The notes under the pieces were generated by a model. That model saw nothing but the letters and a program-made list of their open reading frames with translations. It had not been told where the DNA came from and made no database searches. A DNA stretch of 39,980 bases, taken from a virus. Position numbers and translations under genes: made by a program. Positions within the stretch are counted from its first letter, which is position 1, and each line of letters opens with the position of its first letter. The stretch lies in the IMG/VR virus record IMGVR_UViG_3300019762_000074, positions 1 through 39,980 of that record; one strand, given 5' to 3'. Shown piece after piece: positions 2,353 to 39,980 of this stretch.

Positions 2353-3562
2353 AAAAATCTTTCACCTCACTTTTAATGATTACATTCTCACTACTAACGT
2401 GCTTAACAAATGACAGCTCTGTCAGATCCTTAATACGACTTAAAGCTACATAAAGCTGACCATGACCAAAACACCCCTTACCGATATGTACAGCTGCCTT
2501 CTCTAGTGTCATACCCTGACTCTTATGTACTGTCACAGCCCACCCAAGCTTAATAGGTAGTTGTGTATAAGACTCTTCAGACCACTTCTTAACACCTCCT
2601 TCAGAGCCCTGATAACCCACCTTATCCCAAGTGTATTGTTTAACCCTGACAGACTTTCCAGAGTCTAACAGGACATCTACACTCTTGTTATCAAACCCTG
2701 TCACGACACCTCTATCACCGTTAACATAACCATCATCAGGATTGTTAGCACACAACAACACCTTACAGCCCACCTTGATAGAAACACTTTCAGGCACTGG
2801 TACAGCTTTACCAAAACCTTTAGTCTTCTTGCAGTGGAACAACTTACTCTTACCTTTCAGTTCATTGTACCAGTGCTTGTTGATCTCATCAGAGTCTTTG
2901 TTGTAGCAGCACAAGTGTAGAGTGTCTGGACAGTTCTTATAGGGTTTTGCTAGGCACTGTAGTTCTTCTAAGGCGTTCTCATAGTCAACACCTTTACGGA
3001 TGTTGTTCAGAAGACTGGTATGGTGGTTGTTAGCTTGACGTTTAACTTCTGTGAGCTCTACAGTCTCAAAGTCCCAACAATTAGCTGAGAATGCAAAAGC
3101 ACTCTTATATTCTGTCTGGAACTTGATAGCCTCCCAACGTTGTACGATAGATTCAAGCTGATAGAAGTCTCCTGTCAGCACTACCTGCTTACCACCGAAA
3201 GGTGAGGAGTTCTTTAAGGCGTGTTTAAGTTTCAAGTCTATCAGGTCTAGGTAGTCTGAACGCAGCATACTCACTTCATCAATGATGATACGTTTAGTAC
3301 TCTTCAGCGCTTGTAGGTTCTTAGAGGGGAACTTATATTGATCATTCTCCTTTACACCACTTAAAGGTAGTCCAAAGAAGCTATGACAAGTGACACCTCC
3401 AATGTTGAGTGCTGCAATACCTGTAGGTGCTGCTAGGATTGTGTAGTCATCTGACACTTGATTGATAACAAAACTTTTCCCCACACCACCACCACCTGTC
3501 AGGAATATGTTAGCACCTGACAGGATCTTATCAATAGCTTCTTGTTGCTTTTCAGTGTTCAT
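2336..3562 (-). CDS. Pif1/RecD-like ATP-dependent DNA helicase
   Basis: 408 residues of a superfamily 1 helicase. The Walker A motif GGGGVGKS is at residues 23-30, the Walker B motif IIIDEVSML at about 92-100, and the C-terminal motif VTVHKSQGMTLEKA with GQLYVALSR is typical of UvrD-like domains of RecD/Pif1 and the T4 Dda group. Such enzymes unwind DNA 5' to 3' in replication or recombination. The start is preceded by ACGGAGAAG, the same ribosome-site context as the gene at 3834-4088. It overlaps the downstream helix-turn-helix gene. Confidence 0.93.
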   Translation of the reverse strand: MNTEKQQEAIDKILSGANIFLTGGGGVGKSFVINQVSDDYTILAAPTGIAALNIGGVTCHSFFGLPLSGVKENDQYKFPSKNLQALKSTKRIIIDEVSMLRSDYLDLIDLKLKHALKNSSPFGGKQVVLTGDFYQLESIVQRWEAIKFQTEYKSAFAFSANCWDFETVELTEVKRQANNHHTSLLNNIRKGVDYENALEELQCLAKPYKNCPDTLHLCCYNKDSDEINKHWYNELKGKSKLFHCKKTKGFGKAVPVPESVSIKVGCKVLLCANNPDDGYVNGDRGVVTGFDNKSVDVLLDSGKSVRVKQYTWDKVGYQGSEGGVKKWSEESYTQLPIKLGWAVTVHKSQGMTLEKAAVHIGKGCFGHGQLYVALSRIKDLTELSFVKHVSSENVIIKSEVKDFYGKRY

Positions 3563-3597
3563 TCACTTCTCCGTAATCATTGTAAGGTACACGTTTG

Positions 3598-3837
3598 TCA
3601 CGTATCCCGTGTACTTTTCCTATAAGGCTTAAAAACATCTCTCAGATACAACTCTAACACCTGACACTCTCTATCAAGATCTCCACCACCATCTTTCAGA
3701 GCCTTGTAGTATCCAAAGCTGAGTGTACCATCGTTAATACCATTAATCCACTGTAAACCCATCTCATCAATGTCCTCAAATGACAGTCCAAGAGTAATGA
3801 TATGTCGTGCAAGGTCGTGTACGCTGTTAGGTTTCAG
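3598..3837 (-). CDS. Small protein with probable CTG start
   Basis: An open frame of 79 codons fills what would otherwise be a 270-base gap. It reads as real protein (KPNSVHDLARHIITLGLSFED, then DEMGLQWINGINDGTLSFGYY) and ends at TGA 3598-3600. There is no ATG near its beginning. The first usable codon, CTG at 3837-3835, overlaps the TGA stop of the upstream gene as CTGA, exactly where neighbouring genes have ATGA. An ATG at 3762 would give a 54-residue form. It could use a rare CTG start, arise by -1 frameshift from the upstream gene, or be a decaying gene. No family recognised. Confidence 0.6.
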   Translation of the reverse strand: MKPNSVHDLARHIITLGLSFEDIDEMGLQWINGINDGTLSFGYYKALKDGGGDLDRECQVLELYLRDVFKPYRKSTRDT

Positions 3838-4088
3838 TTTACAACAATTTCCTGTTCGTTTAAATACTTAGCTAACATAACCAGTAGTATATCTAAACCC
3901 CCTTCCTCCACAAAGTGATCATATTCTATTTGACCACCATTAAGTGTCCTTTCAGCAAACTCGATCATGAACTGAAAATCTTCCTTAGTTAAAGGAATAC
4001 CTTTCATAATATGCTGGTAGTCTTTAATAGTTAGTTGTTTGGCAGAGTGACTAGGAACACTCTGAATAAGGTATTTCCAATAACTCAT
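3834..4088 (-). CDS. Hypothetical protein
   Basis: 84 residues starting MSYWKYLIQS, acidic in its second half (FVEEGGLDILLVMLAKYLNEQE). The ribosome site ACGGAGAAG precedes the ATG at normal distance. Its TGA stop overlaps a CTG that may start the next gene. No recognisable domain. Confidence 0.75.
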   Translation of the reverse strand: MSYWKYLIQSVPSHSAKQLTIKDYQHIMKGIPLTKEDFQFMIEFAERTLNGGQIEYDHFVEEGGLDILLVMLAKYLNEQEIVVN

Positions 4089-9041: not shown

Positions 9042-9063
9042 ACATTCCCTTCAGATAAAATAA

Positions 9064-9100
9064 AAGCCTAACACAGGCTCTATAAGCTCATGTTAGGCTT
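9064..9100 (-). terminator. Intrinsic terminator, leftward, overlapping a promoter
   Basis: A perfect 10-bp stem (AAGCCTAACA 9064-9073, TGTTAGGCTT 9091-9100) is followed on the minus strand by TTTTATTTTAT. It ends the transcript of the exported-protein gene at 9121. The upstream arm overlaps the -10 of the promoter at 9090-9118, so RNA started there contains only one arm and should escape termination. Confidence 0.82.
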
Positions 9101-9118
9101 TCTGTTAGTCTCTGTCAA
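9090..9118 (-). promoter_or_regulatory. Leftward promoter TTGACA-N17-TAACAT
   Basis: On the minus strand a perfect -35 TTGACA (9113-9118) is followed by 17 bases and TAACAT (9090-9095). Transcription would begin near 9083, in the loop of the terminator hairpin, and run into the gene at 9041. Confidence 0.72.
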
Positions 9119-14831: not shown

Positions 14832-14852
14832 TCTTCTATCCTCTCCAAGACA

Positions 14853-14909
14853 CTGTAAGGGTTCTTAAAACCTAAAATGATCTTACAACACCCTTACAGT
14901 CCCTGTCAA
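14853..14909 (-). promoter_or_regulatory. Leftward promoter inside a 10-bp inverted repeat
   Basis: On the minus strand TTGACA (14904-14909) is followed after 18 bases by TAAGAT (14880-14885). A perfect 10-bp inverted repeat (CTGTAAGGGT 14853-14862, ACCCTTACAG 14890-14899) has one arm in the promoter spacer and one downstream of the start point, so only readthrough RNA holds both arms. Confidence 0.62.
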
Positions 14910-21142: not shown

Positions 21143-22609
21143 ATGGCAACATCTGAAAGAGAAAAGGTTAATGTAGAGATACTTACAGCCACTGAAGAGA
21201 CTATGAATCAGAAGTCTAAGGCTCGTAGGGATCTTGTTGAGAGGATTGACAAGGCAGATTTCAGCAACTTCGACGCTTCTCCTTGGAAAGATCCTAATAC
21301 TATCAGACCAATCCCCGGCAAGCAAGAGCAGTTCATCCTATCGGATTCTGATATAACATTCTTTATCGGTGGTAGTGGTACGGGTAAGTCTGAGGCGATG
21401 GTCTTAGATCAACTACAGCATGTTAAAGATCCTAACTATGAGTCTATTACGTTCCGTAGGACTACTAAGTCACTGAAAGGTGCTGGTGGTATCTTTAATA
21501 AGGCTGGTAGGGTCTATGAGCGTCTAGGTGCTGAGAAGAAGCTGCAAGATTTGATGTATACGTGGCCTTCAGGTGCTACGGCACGATACTCTCACTTGGA
21601 GCACGGTTTAGCAACAGCAGAAGCTAATCACGCCGGTCTCGAATACGCCAGAATCTACTATGATGAATTACATACTTTCGATAAAGACAGCTTCATGTTC
21701 ATGCTTTCTCGACTACGCTCTAATGCCGATGTAGATGCAGCTGTAAAAGCTACTATGAACCCTACACCTAAGGAGACTATCGGGGGTTGGATACATGAGT
21801 TCCTAGAAGGGTTCTATATTGATGAGTACGGATATCCTATTGAAGAGAATAGTGGTAAGAAGAGGTATTTTATCACAGACGATAATGGTACGTTAATCTG
21901 GGCAGACCACCCAGAAGAACTACAGGCACAGTATGGGTATGATTGCGCCCCTATGTCGTTCACAGCTATTACAAGCTGCATCATAGACAACCCTGTTCTT
22001 ATGTCCCTACAGCCACGTTACCTACCGTCTCTTAAGAACATGGGACGTATTGCTAGGGAAAGATTACTCTACTGTTGTTGGAATGTATCACCGAAAGGGG
22101 CAGGTTACTTCCAGAGGGAATGGATTGAATATGTTGACGGTAAGGATCTACCAAAGCTTAATAAGGTTATCAGGGCTTACGATCTAGCAGCTAGTGTCAA
22201 GAGTGAGATCAATTCAGACCCAGACTGGACAGCTGGTGTGAAGATAGGCCTAGGTGAGGATGGTTGCTTCTATGTAATGAATGCTAAAGAGATTCTAGCA
22301 CGACCTGCTGGTGTTGCTAAGTTGATACAAGAAACTGCTGTTATGGATGGTAAGAACGTACCTATAGGAATCCCTCAAGATGCCGGTGCGGGTGGTCTTA
22401 TCCAGTTTGAGCACTACGCTAAACCTCTTATTTTGAAGGGTTATAAGGTTAAGAAGGCAAAGACCCGTAAAGGTAAGCTTGAAAGGTTTTCAGGATTCTC
22501 TAATGCCGCTGAAAATGGCATGGTTAAGATTGTAAAAGGGGACTGGAACGATAAGTATATCACACAGCTGGAAAACTTTGATCCAGATCGTAAAAGGCAA
22601 CATGACGAT
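21143..22609 (+). CDS. terL: Terminase large subunit, exon 1
   Basis: 489 codons. The packaging ATPase has Walker A GGSGTGKS at residues 76-83 and Walker B IYYDE at 171-175, with a coupling motif TMNPTP later. The nuclease domain begins at VIRAYDLAASV (motif I Asp). The exon ends ...KRQHDD, at the conserved acidic motif III, and unspliced RNA meets TAA at once (22610-22612). The remaining motif is in exon 2 (22879-22995); the joined protein has 527 residues. GTAGGAGG precedes the ATG. Confidence 0.94.
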
Positions 22610-22878
22610 TAACTGACAGGTCGTCAATAAACCCATTGAATTGCTGGAACATCTCTCAGAGACTATCAGCAGCTAAGATACTTAATAGGTATAAAGTTCA
22701 ACGGCCATCGAAAGCACACTAATAGTGCCACTATTAGTGGAAGCGAGTAGAGTAGACTGTAAGTGCAGTCGAAGCGGTGGGGTGCAGTTATGCACATGAT
22801 ATGGTCTGATCTTACAGGCGACTGTAAGCAGCTCTTAGAGAGCGGGATAGTATTAACGACACTATCTGAACACAAATG
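22610..22878 (+). ncRNA. Group I self-splicing intron in terL
   Basis: 269 bases, no open frame. P1: exon TGACGAT (22603-22609) pairs with GTCGTCA (22620-22626), giving the U-G pair at the 5' splice site. P3: CCCATTG 22632-22638 with CGGTGGG 22775-22781. P4: TGCTG 22642-22646 with CAGCA 22667-22671. P5: TCTC 22652-22655 with GAGA 22659-22662. P6: ATACTT 22678-22683 with AGGTAT 22687-22692. P7: GGCCAT 22703-22708 with ATGGTC 22801-22806. P7.1: CACTAATAG 22717-22725 with CTATTAGTG 22731-22739. P7.2: GACTG 22755-22759 with CAGTC 22766-22770. P8: GTGCA 22782-22786 with TGCAC 22791-22795. P9: CTTACAG 22811-22817 with CTGTAAG 22822-22828. The intron ends in G (22878). The P7.1/P7.2 pair points to subgroup IA. 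Confidence 0.95.
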
Positions 22879-22995
22879 CTAGTCGATGCAACATCCGATG
22901 CCTACAACTTCCTAGTATCTGGCAGAAAGCTTCCAGACAACTTCAAGTTATCCATGCCAGCGGAACTAGGAAAAACTAATCCTTTTAACTTCTAA
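22879..22995 (+). CDS. terL: Terminase large subunit, exon 2
   Basis: 38 codons reading LVDATSDAYNFLVSGRKLP onward to TAA (22993-22995), with no start codon of their own. Joined in frame after ...KRQHDD they give HDDLVDATSDA, the usual motif III of large-terminase nucleases (D/E-x-VDAxxDA). Splicing is therefore needed to complete the nuclease active site. Confidence 0.92.
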   Translation, partial: LVDATSDAYNFLVSGRKLPDNFKLSMPAELGKTNPFNF

Positions 22996-23003
22996 CATTT
23001 CTC

Positions 23004-23061
23004 TTGACAGCTTCCTCTCAGCGCTCTAACATCCTTATTGTCATATAAACACTGAGAGGAA
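23004..23061 (+). promoter_or_regulatory. Rightward promoter inside a ribosome-site hairpin
   Basis: TTGACA (23004-23009), 17 bases, TAACAT (23027-23032), start expected near 23039. A perfect 10-bp inverted repeat (TTCCTCTCAG 23012-23021, CTGAGAGGAA 23052-23061) encloses the start point, and its second arm contains the GAGAGG ribosome site of the gene at 23069. RNA read through from terL can fold and hide that site; RNA from this promoter cannot. Confidence 0.7.
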
Positions 23062-23068
23062 CTTCAAG

Positions 23069-23296
23069 ATGACTTTAGATATTAAAATGTATGATACAGG
23101 CGACTGTAGTAGACTCGATGTAGATTTCTTACAGTATTGCTTAGAGCATGGTGATAAGATACATCTGATTAACAATGCAAATTACTTCAACTATTACTGT
23201 GAGCAATACTTAGAATACCTTTTAGAAGTGTTTGATAAAGACTTTCTGAAAGCTAATGTAACCTTTGAAGGTTTTGAAAGTAACCTCCTAGACTGA
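23069..23296 (+). CDS. Hypothetical acidic protein, hairpin-controlled
   Basis: 75 residues, MTLDIKMYDTGDCSRLDVDF, with a Tyr-rich middle (NYFNYYCEQYLEYLLEVF). Its ribosome site GAGAGG is in the hairpin described at 23004-23061. Function unknown. Confidence 0.75.
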   Translation: MTLDIKMYDTGDCSRLDVDFLQYCLEHGDKIHLINNANYFNYYCEQYLEYLLEVFDKDFLKANVTFEGFESNLLD

Positions 23297-23314: not shown

Positions 23315-23581
23315 ATGGGTAAGACATTTCGCAAGGAACGTACAAAACCTAAAGGGACTAAGAAACCTATCAAGCGTTGTAAGAAGGTTGATGGCGAGGC
23401 TCTCGTAAACACTATCAGTCCTGATTGGGATCTGGAAGAAGACTTCACAGATCAACCTGAACCTCTGTTTGATAATTATGAGTGTTTCTGTGAGGACTCT
23501 GACATCTCTCACTGTGGATTGTGTTATACAATGACAGAAGATGGTCAGTTGGTTCACAAGGAAACTGGAGAGGTATTATAG
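23315..23581 (+). CDS. Hypothetical protein with basic N-terminus and Cys cluster
   Basis: 88 residues. The first 30 are very basic (KTFRKERTKPKGTKKPIKRC). The C-terminal half has Cys as ECFCED and HCGLC, a possible zinc site. No clear ribosome site beyond AAGGAACTG. Function unknown. Confidence 0.7.
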   Translation: MGKTFRKERTKPKGTKKPIKRCKKVDGEALVNTISPDWDLEEDFTDQPEPLFDNYECFCEDSDISHCGLCYTMTEDGQLVHKETGEVL

Positions 23582-23618: not shown

Positions 23619-23647
23619 TTGACATCATTTCCTTAATCCCACATTAT
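23619..23647 (+). promoter_or_regulatory. Rightward promoter TTGACA-N17-CATTATATA
   Basis: TTGACA (23619-23624), 17 bases, CATTAT (23642-23647) continuing ATATC. A 7-bp inverted repeat (TTTCCTT 23628-23634, AAGGAAA 23661-23667) spans the -10 and start. A terminator follows within about 60 bases. Confidence 0.7.
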
Positions 23648-23678
23648 ATATCCTATCAACAAGGAAATACAACACCAG

Positions 23679-23720
23679 AGCCTGAAAGGAACTTAAAACG
23701 CCTTTCAGGCTTTCGTGTTT
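23679..23720 (+). terminator. Intrinsic terminator before portal gene
   Basis: An 11-bp stem (AGCCTGAAAGG 23679-23689, CCTTTCAGGCT 23701-23711) is followed by TTCGTGTTT. RNA from the 23619 promoter would end here after about 65 bases unless antiterminated. Confidence 0.72.
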
Positions 23721-27871: not shown

Positions 27872-27908
27872 AAGGCTGTCATGTCAACTTAGGCTTGGCA
27901 GCCTTTTT
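27872..27908 (+). terminator. Intrinsic terminator after capsid gene
   Basis: AAGGCTG (27872-27878) pairs with CAGCCTT (27899-27905), with TTTTT at 27904-27908. Confidence 0.8.
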
Positions 27909-27910
27909 AG

Positions 27911-27955
27911 TTTCTTATTTAAGAAACACTAAAACATCACATTACAGTGTTTCTT
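27911..27955 (+). promoter_or_regulatory. Alternative hairpins after capsid terminator
   Basis: AAGAAACACT (27921-27930) can pair with AGTGTTTCTT (27946-27955) as a perfect 10-bp stem. Its first six bases can instead pair with TTTCTT at 27911-27916. The two folds exclude each other. Possibly an RNA switch or processing site ahead of the gene at 27982. Confidence 0.45.
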
Positions 27956-27981
27956 ATATAGCAAACTAAAGGAGGTTTGGT

Positions 27982-39229: not shown

Positions 39230-39980
39230 ATGAGTATTGATCAAGTTATTACTGAATACACTGGTAACGTTCCTAATAGGGATGAACCAGAGACTTTTGA
39301 TGGAGATGTTGGCAACTATCTTACATATACTTCAACAACAGCCCCTCAGATCAACCAGTGGGCTACAGAAGCTAACGCATTGGCTGGTAGTATTAATAGC
39401 ACAGCAGGTGATGTAGAGACTGATAAGTTAACTGTGGAGGACTATAAAAACCAGACATTGGTTTATAGGAATGAAACAGAGATATTTAAAGACTCAGCAG
39501 AAACTGCTGCAGCAGCAGCTCAAGCAGGTGCAGGGTTGCCGACTGTCGGAAATGACGGTGACGTTTTAACGCTGATAGATAGCATGAATAATACAGTTGC
39601 GTTTAAACCACCATTGAAGGACAGATATTCAGACTTAATTGTTAGCAACTGGACTATCAGAACCTCTGTCGTTGATAATATTTGGAGCGCTATCTGCTGG
39701 TCAGCTGAACTGGGTCTATTTTGTGCTGTTGCGGTATCAGGCACAGGAAATCGAGTTATGACATCACCAGATGGGATTAACTGGACTATTCGAACCTCTG
39801 CTGCTGATAATAATTGGCGCTCTATCTGTTGGTCTGCTGAACTGGGTCTATTTTGTGCTGTTGCGGAATCAGGCACAGGAAATCGAGTTATGACATCACC
39901 AGATGGGATTAATTGGACTATTCGCACATCTGCTGCTGATAATGCTTGGAGCGCTATCTGCTGGTCAGCTGAACTGGGTC
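39230..39980 (+). CDS. Tail fibre/receptor-binding protein with propeller repeats (partial)
   Basis: An open frame starts at ATG 39230 (MSIDQVITEYTGNVPNRDEP), after GGAGATACT, and runs off the window after 250 codons. The N-terminal 120 residues include an Ala-rich stretch (SAETAAAAAQAGAG) seen in tail-fibre proteins. From residue 140 a 44-residue unit (NWTIRTSxxDNxWxxICWSA then ELGLFCAVAxSGTGNRVMTS and PDGI) repeats. The units resemble beta-propeller blades with the motif TSPDGINWT. Confidence 0.82.
   Translation, partial: MSIDQVITEYTGNVPNRDEPETFDGDVGNYLTYTSTTAPQINQWATEANALAGSINSTAGDVETDKLTVEDYKNQTLVYRNETEIFKDSAETAAAAAQAGAGLPTVGNDGDVLTLIDSMNNTVAFKPPLKDRYSDLIVSNWTIRTSVVDNIWSAICWSAELGLFCAVAVSGTGNRVMTSPDGINWTIRTSAADNNWRSICWSAELGLFCAVAESGTGNRVMTSPDGINWTIRTSAADNAWSAICWSAELG
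39647..39980 (+). repeat. 132-bp tandem repeats in tail fibre gene
   Basis: Units start at 39647, 39779 and 39911, the last cut by the window edge. Long stretches are identical between copies (for example from CTGAACTGGGTCTATTTTGT to TCACCAGATGGGATT), so the copies are recent or kept alike by recombination. Confidence 0.9.

Follow-up and report, generated by a model that had tools for sequence, protein, structure and literature searches.

Translation of a 75-aa phage gene is probably set by where its transcript begins: of the explanations that we weighed, a T4-like mechanism is the best. The gene follows the terminase large subunit gene (terL), and its leader would act in cis as an RNA device that makes translation depend on the origin of the transcript. 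RNA reading through from terL would contain both arms of a hairpin, which would pair in an 18-bp stem over the Shine–Dalgarno sequence (SD), the spacer and the AUG and render the gene almost untranslatable. RNA from a sigma-70-type promoter nested in the same hairpin would start in the loop at about 23039, lack the 5' arm and leave the SD exposed. The 75-aa gene would in this way be decoupled from transcription of terL, its expression relying on its own promoter alone. On this model, the claim that can be made is that the gene would be insulated from terL transcription; the early/late switch of T4 is no part of it.

The DNA analysed here (the window) is an entire IMG/VR virus record of 39,980 bases from an uncultured tailed phage. 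Among the genes that run rightward are terL, portal, head maturation protease, major head protein and tape measure; a Dda-like helicase and a thymidylate synthase are among those that run leftward. The 75-aa gene lies on the same strand as terL, and no intrinsic terminator is listed between the terL intron and the gene. The features of this region are:

21143–22609, + strand: terL exon 1 (PHROG 979, terminase large subunit, E 1.3e-139)
22610–22878, + strand: group I intron in terL, 269 nt, without an ORF (Rfam RF00028, E 1.7e-11)
22879–22995, + strand: terL exon 2 with the stop codon (LVDATSDAYNFLVSGRKLPDNFKLSMPAELGKTNPFNF, then stop), in agreement with the terL C-termini of relatives
23002–23021, + strand: 5' arm of the hairpin (10-bp core 23012–23021, outer pairs 23002–23010)
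23004–23009, + strand: -35 box TTGACA (6/6), of which UUGA also pairs in the outer stem
23027–23032, + strand: -10 box TAACAT (4/6), 17-nt spacer from the -35 box
23052–23069, + strand: 3' arm of the hairpin (core 23052–23061), covering the SD, the spacer and the A of the AUG
23055–23060, + strand: Shine–Dalgarno GAGAGG, read from the sequence
23069–23296, + strand: putatively controlled gene, encoding an acidic orphan protein of 75 aa (no match in PHROG and none convincing in Pfam)
23315–23581, + strand: second small gene, 88 aa, orphan
23619–23647, + strand: portal promoter TTGACA-17-CATTAT, conserved in the related contig L013
23753–25174, + strand: portal gene (PHROG 113, E 1.9e-73)

An earlier note on this sequence placed the nested promoter right after terL, which holds only by way of exon 2, past the group I intron: the reading frame has an apparent stop at 22612 and its true stop at 22995, beyond the intron and 9 nt before the -35 box. 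The intron scores 49.7 bits against Rfam RF00028, just below the gathering score of 50, and its splice sites were read from the sequence (GACGAT/GTCGTC P1 with U.G). Exon 2 is the conserved terL C-terminus, as found in relatives both with and without introns. At the same terL site, one relative (L002) has an intron containing an ORF of ~240 aa without a Pfam match, and an intron end is likewise seen in another (L020).

The inverted repeat that the note had described is present and is stronger than described. Both arms are exact (TTCCTCTCAG at 23012–23021 and CTGAGAGGAA at 23052–23061), and the 10 bp given for them is the core of a longer predicted stem, in which 23002–23007, 23009–23010 and 23012–23021 pair with 23052–23069. 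This stem has 18 bp, two one-base bulges (C23008 and C23011) and a 30-nt loop, and it ends on the A of the AUG, the ATG of the 75-aa gene being at 23069. Folding of the leader has a z of -4.2, and the duplex energy of the stem was reached in 0 of 20,000 shuffles. An inverted repeat of at least 10 bp across the SD zone arose in 0.08% of shuffles of this leader, and no other of the 62 gene starts in the window has so long a repeat over the SD zone. An intrinsic terminator at 23004 was ruled out, as there is no T-run.

The internal promoter claimed in the same note was also supported as a prediction, with TTGACA, a 17-nt spacer and TAACAT belonging to an enriched class: matches to TTGACA-(16 to 18)-TAASAT number five in the window, where shuffles lead one to expect 0.07 (at 23004 on the + strand and at 9118, 14909, 16008 and 17845 on the - strand). 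All five precede gene starts, and four of them begin 3–9 nt from an upstream stop codon. The enrichment, together with the placement before gene starts, makes the promoter at 23004 credible as a class member. Spacing from its boxes gives a predicted transcript start at about 23039–23040, past the 5' arm and in the loop. Judged by its boxes, the nested promoter is of host sigma-70 type and not a phage late promoter. A candidate T4-type late promoter at ~23044 (TATAAACA) was rejected, as its RNA would begin within the SD and L013 does not conserve it. A scan for the shared spacer TTGACAGNNACTAACAG hit 28 contigs; all of them lacked homology to the window and a -10 box that matched, and the hits were taken as chance.

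We computed how readily the SD opens in each RNA. The cost was 18.5 kcal/mol in the read-through RNA and 2.4 kcal/mol in RNA from the predicted start. In short RNAs with any start from 23030 to 23049 the SD opened at a computed ~2 kcal/mol, so the masking claim is independent of the exact start. T4 gene e, the classic example of this design, run through the same script as a positive control, gave the same pattern, with 13.6 kcal/mol for the long RNA versus 4.4 kcal/mol for the short one.

The hairpin recurs in L013, a contig with a portal 93% identical to that of the window. After terL it carries TTGACAG, CCTCTCAG, TAACAT and CACTGAGAGGAA, and so keeps the promoter and both arms. Its loop differs in sequence and has 8 extra nt, and its stem has 11 perfect pairs, a C.A mismatch having become T-A. 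Pairing is favoured because the arms outlived the loop; the right arm is invariant between these two sequences, so there are no compensatory changes to read. Codons 1–42 of the 75-aa gene, with its start codon, are deleted in L013 and the hairpin is retained. The remaining 31 C-terminal codons keep the frame and the stop, and 11 of 19 differences fall at third positions. This pattern is consistent with a recent deletion, which would explain the persistence of the hairpin. More distant relatives pass from terL to portal with a promoter and without such a hairpin, and we infer that the small genes are an insertion in the terL–portal gap.

Related contigs vary further in this region. L013 has an ORF between terS and terL (378–1190) with a weak resemblance to GIY-YIG (Pfam E 0.036, below the cut-off) and, inserted after terL, a gene for an RlaP-like nucleotidyltransferase (3010–3984, Pfam E 1.4e-10). 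The terL–portal gap of L003–L008 holds TTGACACT/AGTGTCAA and GTGTCAA-N4-TTGACAC repeats that overlap the portal promoter at its -35 box and are repressor-operator-like. The portal leader of the window contains a strong hairpin (23671–23719) that is conserved in L013, and L003-type relatives have an unrelated GC-rich hairpin in its place. An 8-bp repeat around the portal promoter (23627–23634 / 23660–23667) is not kept in L013 and was treated as chance. Elsewhere in the window, an inverted repeat with 25-nt arms separates the terminator of the major head protein gene from the SD that follows (27906–27970), and a tandem repeat with a 132-bp unit (2.5 copies, 39647–39980) runs off the contig end. 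Comparison of the region with isolated phages gave short, low-scoring matches only, a tblastn search with the 75-aa protein gave no match among isolated phages, and bacterial genomes searched with a portal alignment gave none. No credible fold match emerged for the 75-aa protein from its predicted structure (pLDDT 78).

Two further TAASAT-class promoters are nested in the same manner:

9063–9118, - strand: second nested promoter (TTGACA 9118–9113, TAACAT 9095–9090, arms 9101–9091 and 9073–9063)
14852–14909, - strand: third nested promoter (TTGACA 14909–14904, TAAGAT 14885–14880, arms 14900–14890 and 14862–14852)

Each lies within a perfect 11-bp inverted repeat, and the SD is unmasked at both. 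At 9118 a U-rich tract, UUUUAUUUUAUC, comes after the 3' arm; in read-through RNA this hairpin would be terminator-like, and the local RNA would form only a weaker one. At 14909 a long hairpin adjoins the SD GAGAGG of an 80-aa gene without covering it; the gene before this promoter has a product with a KilA-N domain (Pfam E 6.5e-6). For the genes next to these two promoters no homologues were found, which precluded a covariation test of their hairpins. Perfect repeats of at least 10 bp with loops of 3–45 nt number 13 in the window versus 2.6 in shuffles, and three of them enclose class promoters (23004, 9118 and 14909), with unlike arm sequences. Relative to the non-coding rate of 0.9%, nested repeats at 3 of 8 class promoters have a P of ~4e-5 and at 3 of 14 a P of 2e-4, both indicative values, as the first case had already been seen when we settled on the geometry. 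Masking of the SD may be one form of a wider insulation from read-through. Points against the T4-like reading of 23004 include the L013 hairpin, which stands without a start codon, and the unmasked SD at the two other nested promoters.

The main rival is that such hairpins are general read-through insulators or RNA ends, which terminate the upstream transcript, protect its 3' end or are cut by RNase III, the promoter lying inside the hairpin because intergenic gaps are short and SD masking at 23004 being incidental. We regard this as a serious minority prospect. It would account for nested 10–11-bp repeats with unlike arms at three of eight class promoters, for UUUUAUUUUAUC after the 3' arm at 9118, for a 14909 stem that merely adjoins the SD and for the closeness of most TAASAT promoters (4/5, at 3–9 nt) to an upstream stop. 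However, the 23004 hairpin has no U-tract and a loop of 30 nt, and an end hairpin would have no reason to stop exactly at the A of the AUG. Chance is less probable still: a pyrimidine-rich promoter spacer might complement a purine-rich SD region without function, given that a 10-bp repeat has a ~5% probability of occurring somewhere among 62 gene starts (0.0008 each) and that relatives without the small gene also lack the structure, but this fits poorly with an 18-bp stem unmatched in the 20,000 shuffles, with L013 keeping both arms across a changed loop and with two further nested repeats in the same genome. We consider it very improbable that the arms form a DNA operator, each being a half-site bound by a regulator that acts across the promoter. 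The predicted start site is close to the centre of the dyads, and TTGAC/GTCAA palindromes overlap the portal promoter -35 box in some relatives, but the arms differ among the three nested promoters, leaving no shared site, and from the window to L013 the arm spacing shifts by 8 bp, which is not a helical turn.

A broader proposal, which we hold tentatively and think unlikely as it stands, is that a promoter inside its own hairpin is a general form of punctuation in this phage: read-in RNA would fold the hairpin, local RNA could not, and the outcome (translation block, SD-abutting hairpin or termination) would be set downstream of the 3' arm. Under such punctuation, 23004 could invert the timing of T4, with the gene switched on by a promoter of the leftward-gene class and off in RNA read through from terL. 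Insulation across several promoters is a more novel possibility than the T4-like reading of 23004, and with three such promoters in a single genome, a general insulation rule can be put to a direct test. The T4-like mechanism that we prefer for 23004 would mean that the T4 design recurs with host-type promoters, in a phage without evident T4 kinship at these genes. The small gene that it would guard sits between two essential packaging genes, and the device would offer an added gene a simple way to escape being driven by its neighbours.

In T4 gene e, the SD is part of the 3' strand of a helix that only the longer, upstream-initiated RNA can form, and the promoter lies in the region of the 5' strand, leaving the short RNA open (PMC3014915). 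The locus at 23004 is alike in that the long RNA is predicted to mask the SD and the short RNA to be open, with the same computed behaviour. The earlier note had invoked the logic of gene e, and the architecture, the energetics, the T4 control and the persistence in L013 all speak for it; the promoter type of T4 does not carry over. Gene e has gp55-dependent late promoters (TATAAATA) and a separation of early and late expression, whereas 23004 has a sigma-70-like promoter, structural genes on both sides and an unrelated gene; TTGACA-17-TAACAT, and no TATAAATA, is nested in its hairpin. T4 soc, I-TevI, I-TevII, I-TevIII and segB and Aeh1 mobE likewise have a hairpin that sequesters the ribosome-binding site (RBS) and that RNA from the gene's promoter is unable to form (PMC2988022). 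Those genes encode homing endonucleases or a capsid decoration protein, whereas the gene after 23004 is a 75-aa orphan outside the nearby intron, with no kinship to lysozyme, Soc or homing endonucleases by PHROG, Pfam, phage tblastn or fold. In the collection of papers that it covered, our literature search turned up no non-T4 examples of the nested-promoter design, which is no proof of absence. In seg43(25) of Aeromonas phage 25, a stable hairpin lies directly upstream of the RBS, which is not sequestered (PMC2988022); the side finding at 14909, not 23004, resembles this arrangement, with its hairpin adjoining the SD without covering it. As for e and I-TevI, the SD and AUG at 23004 are predicted to lie in a stable helix of the long RNA (18 bp, 18.5 kcal/mol), and RNA from the nested promoter is predicted to lack the 5' strand. 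The locus would work like T4 e, soc and I-TevI but is not related to them, differing in gene, promoter type and phage.
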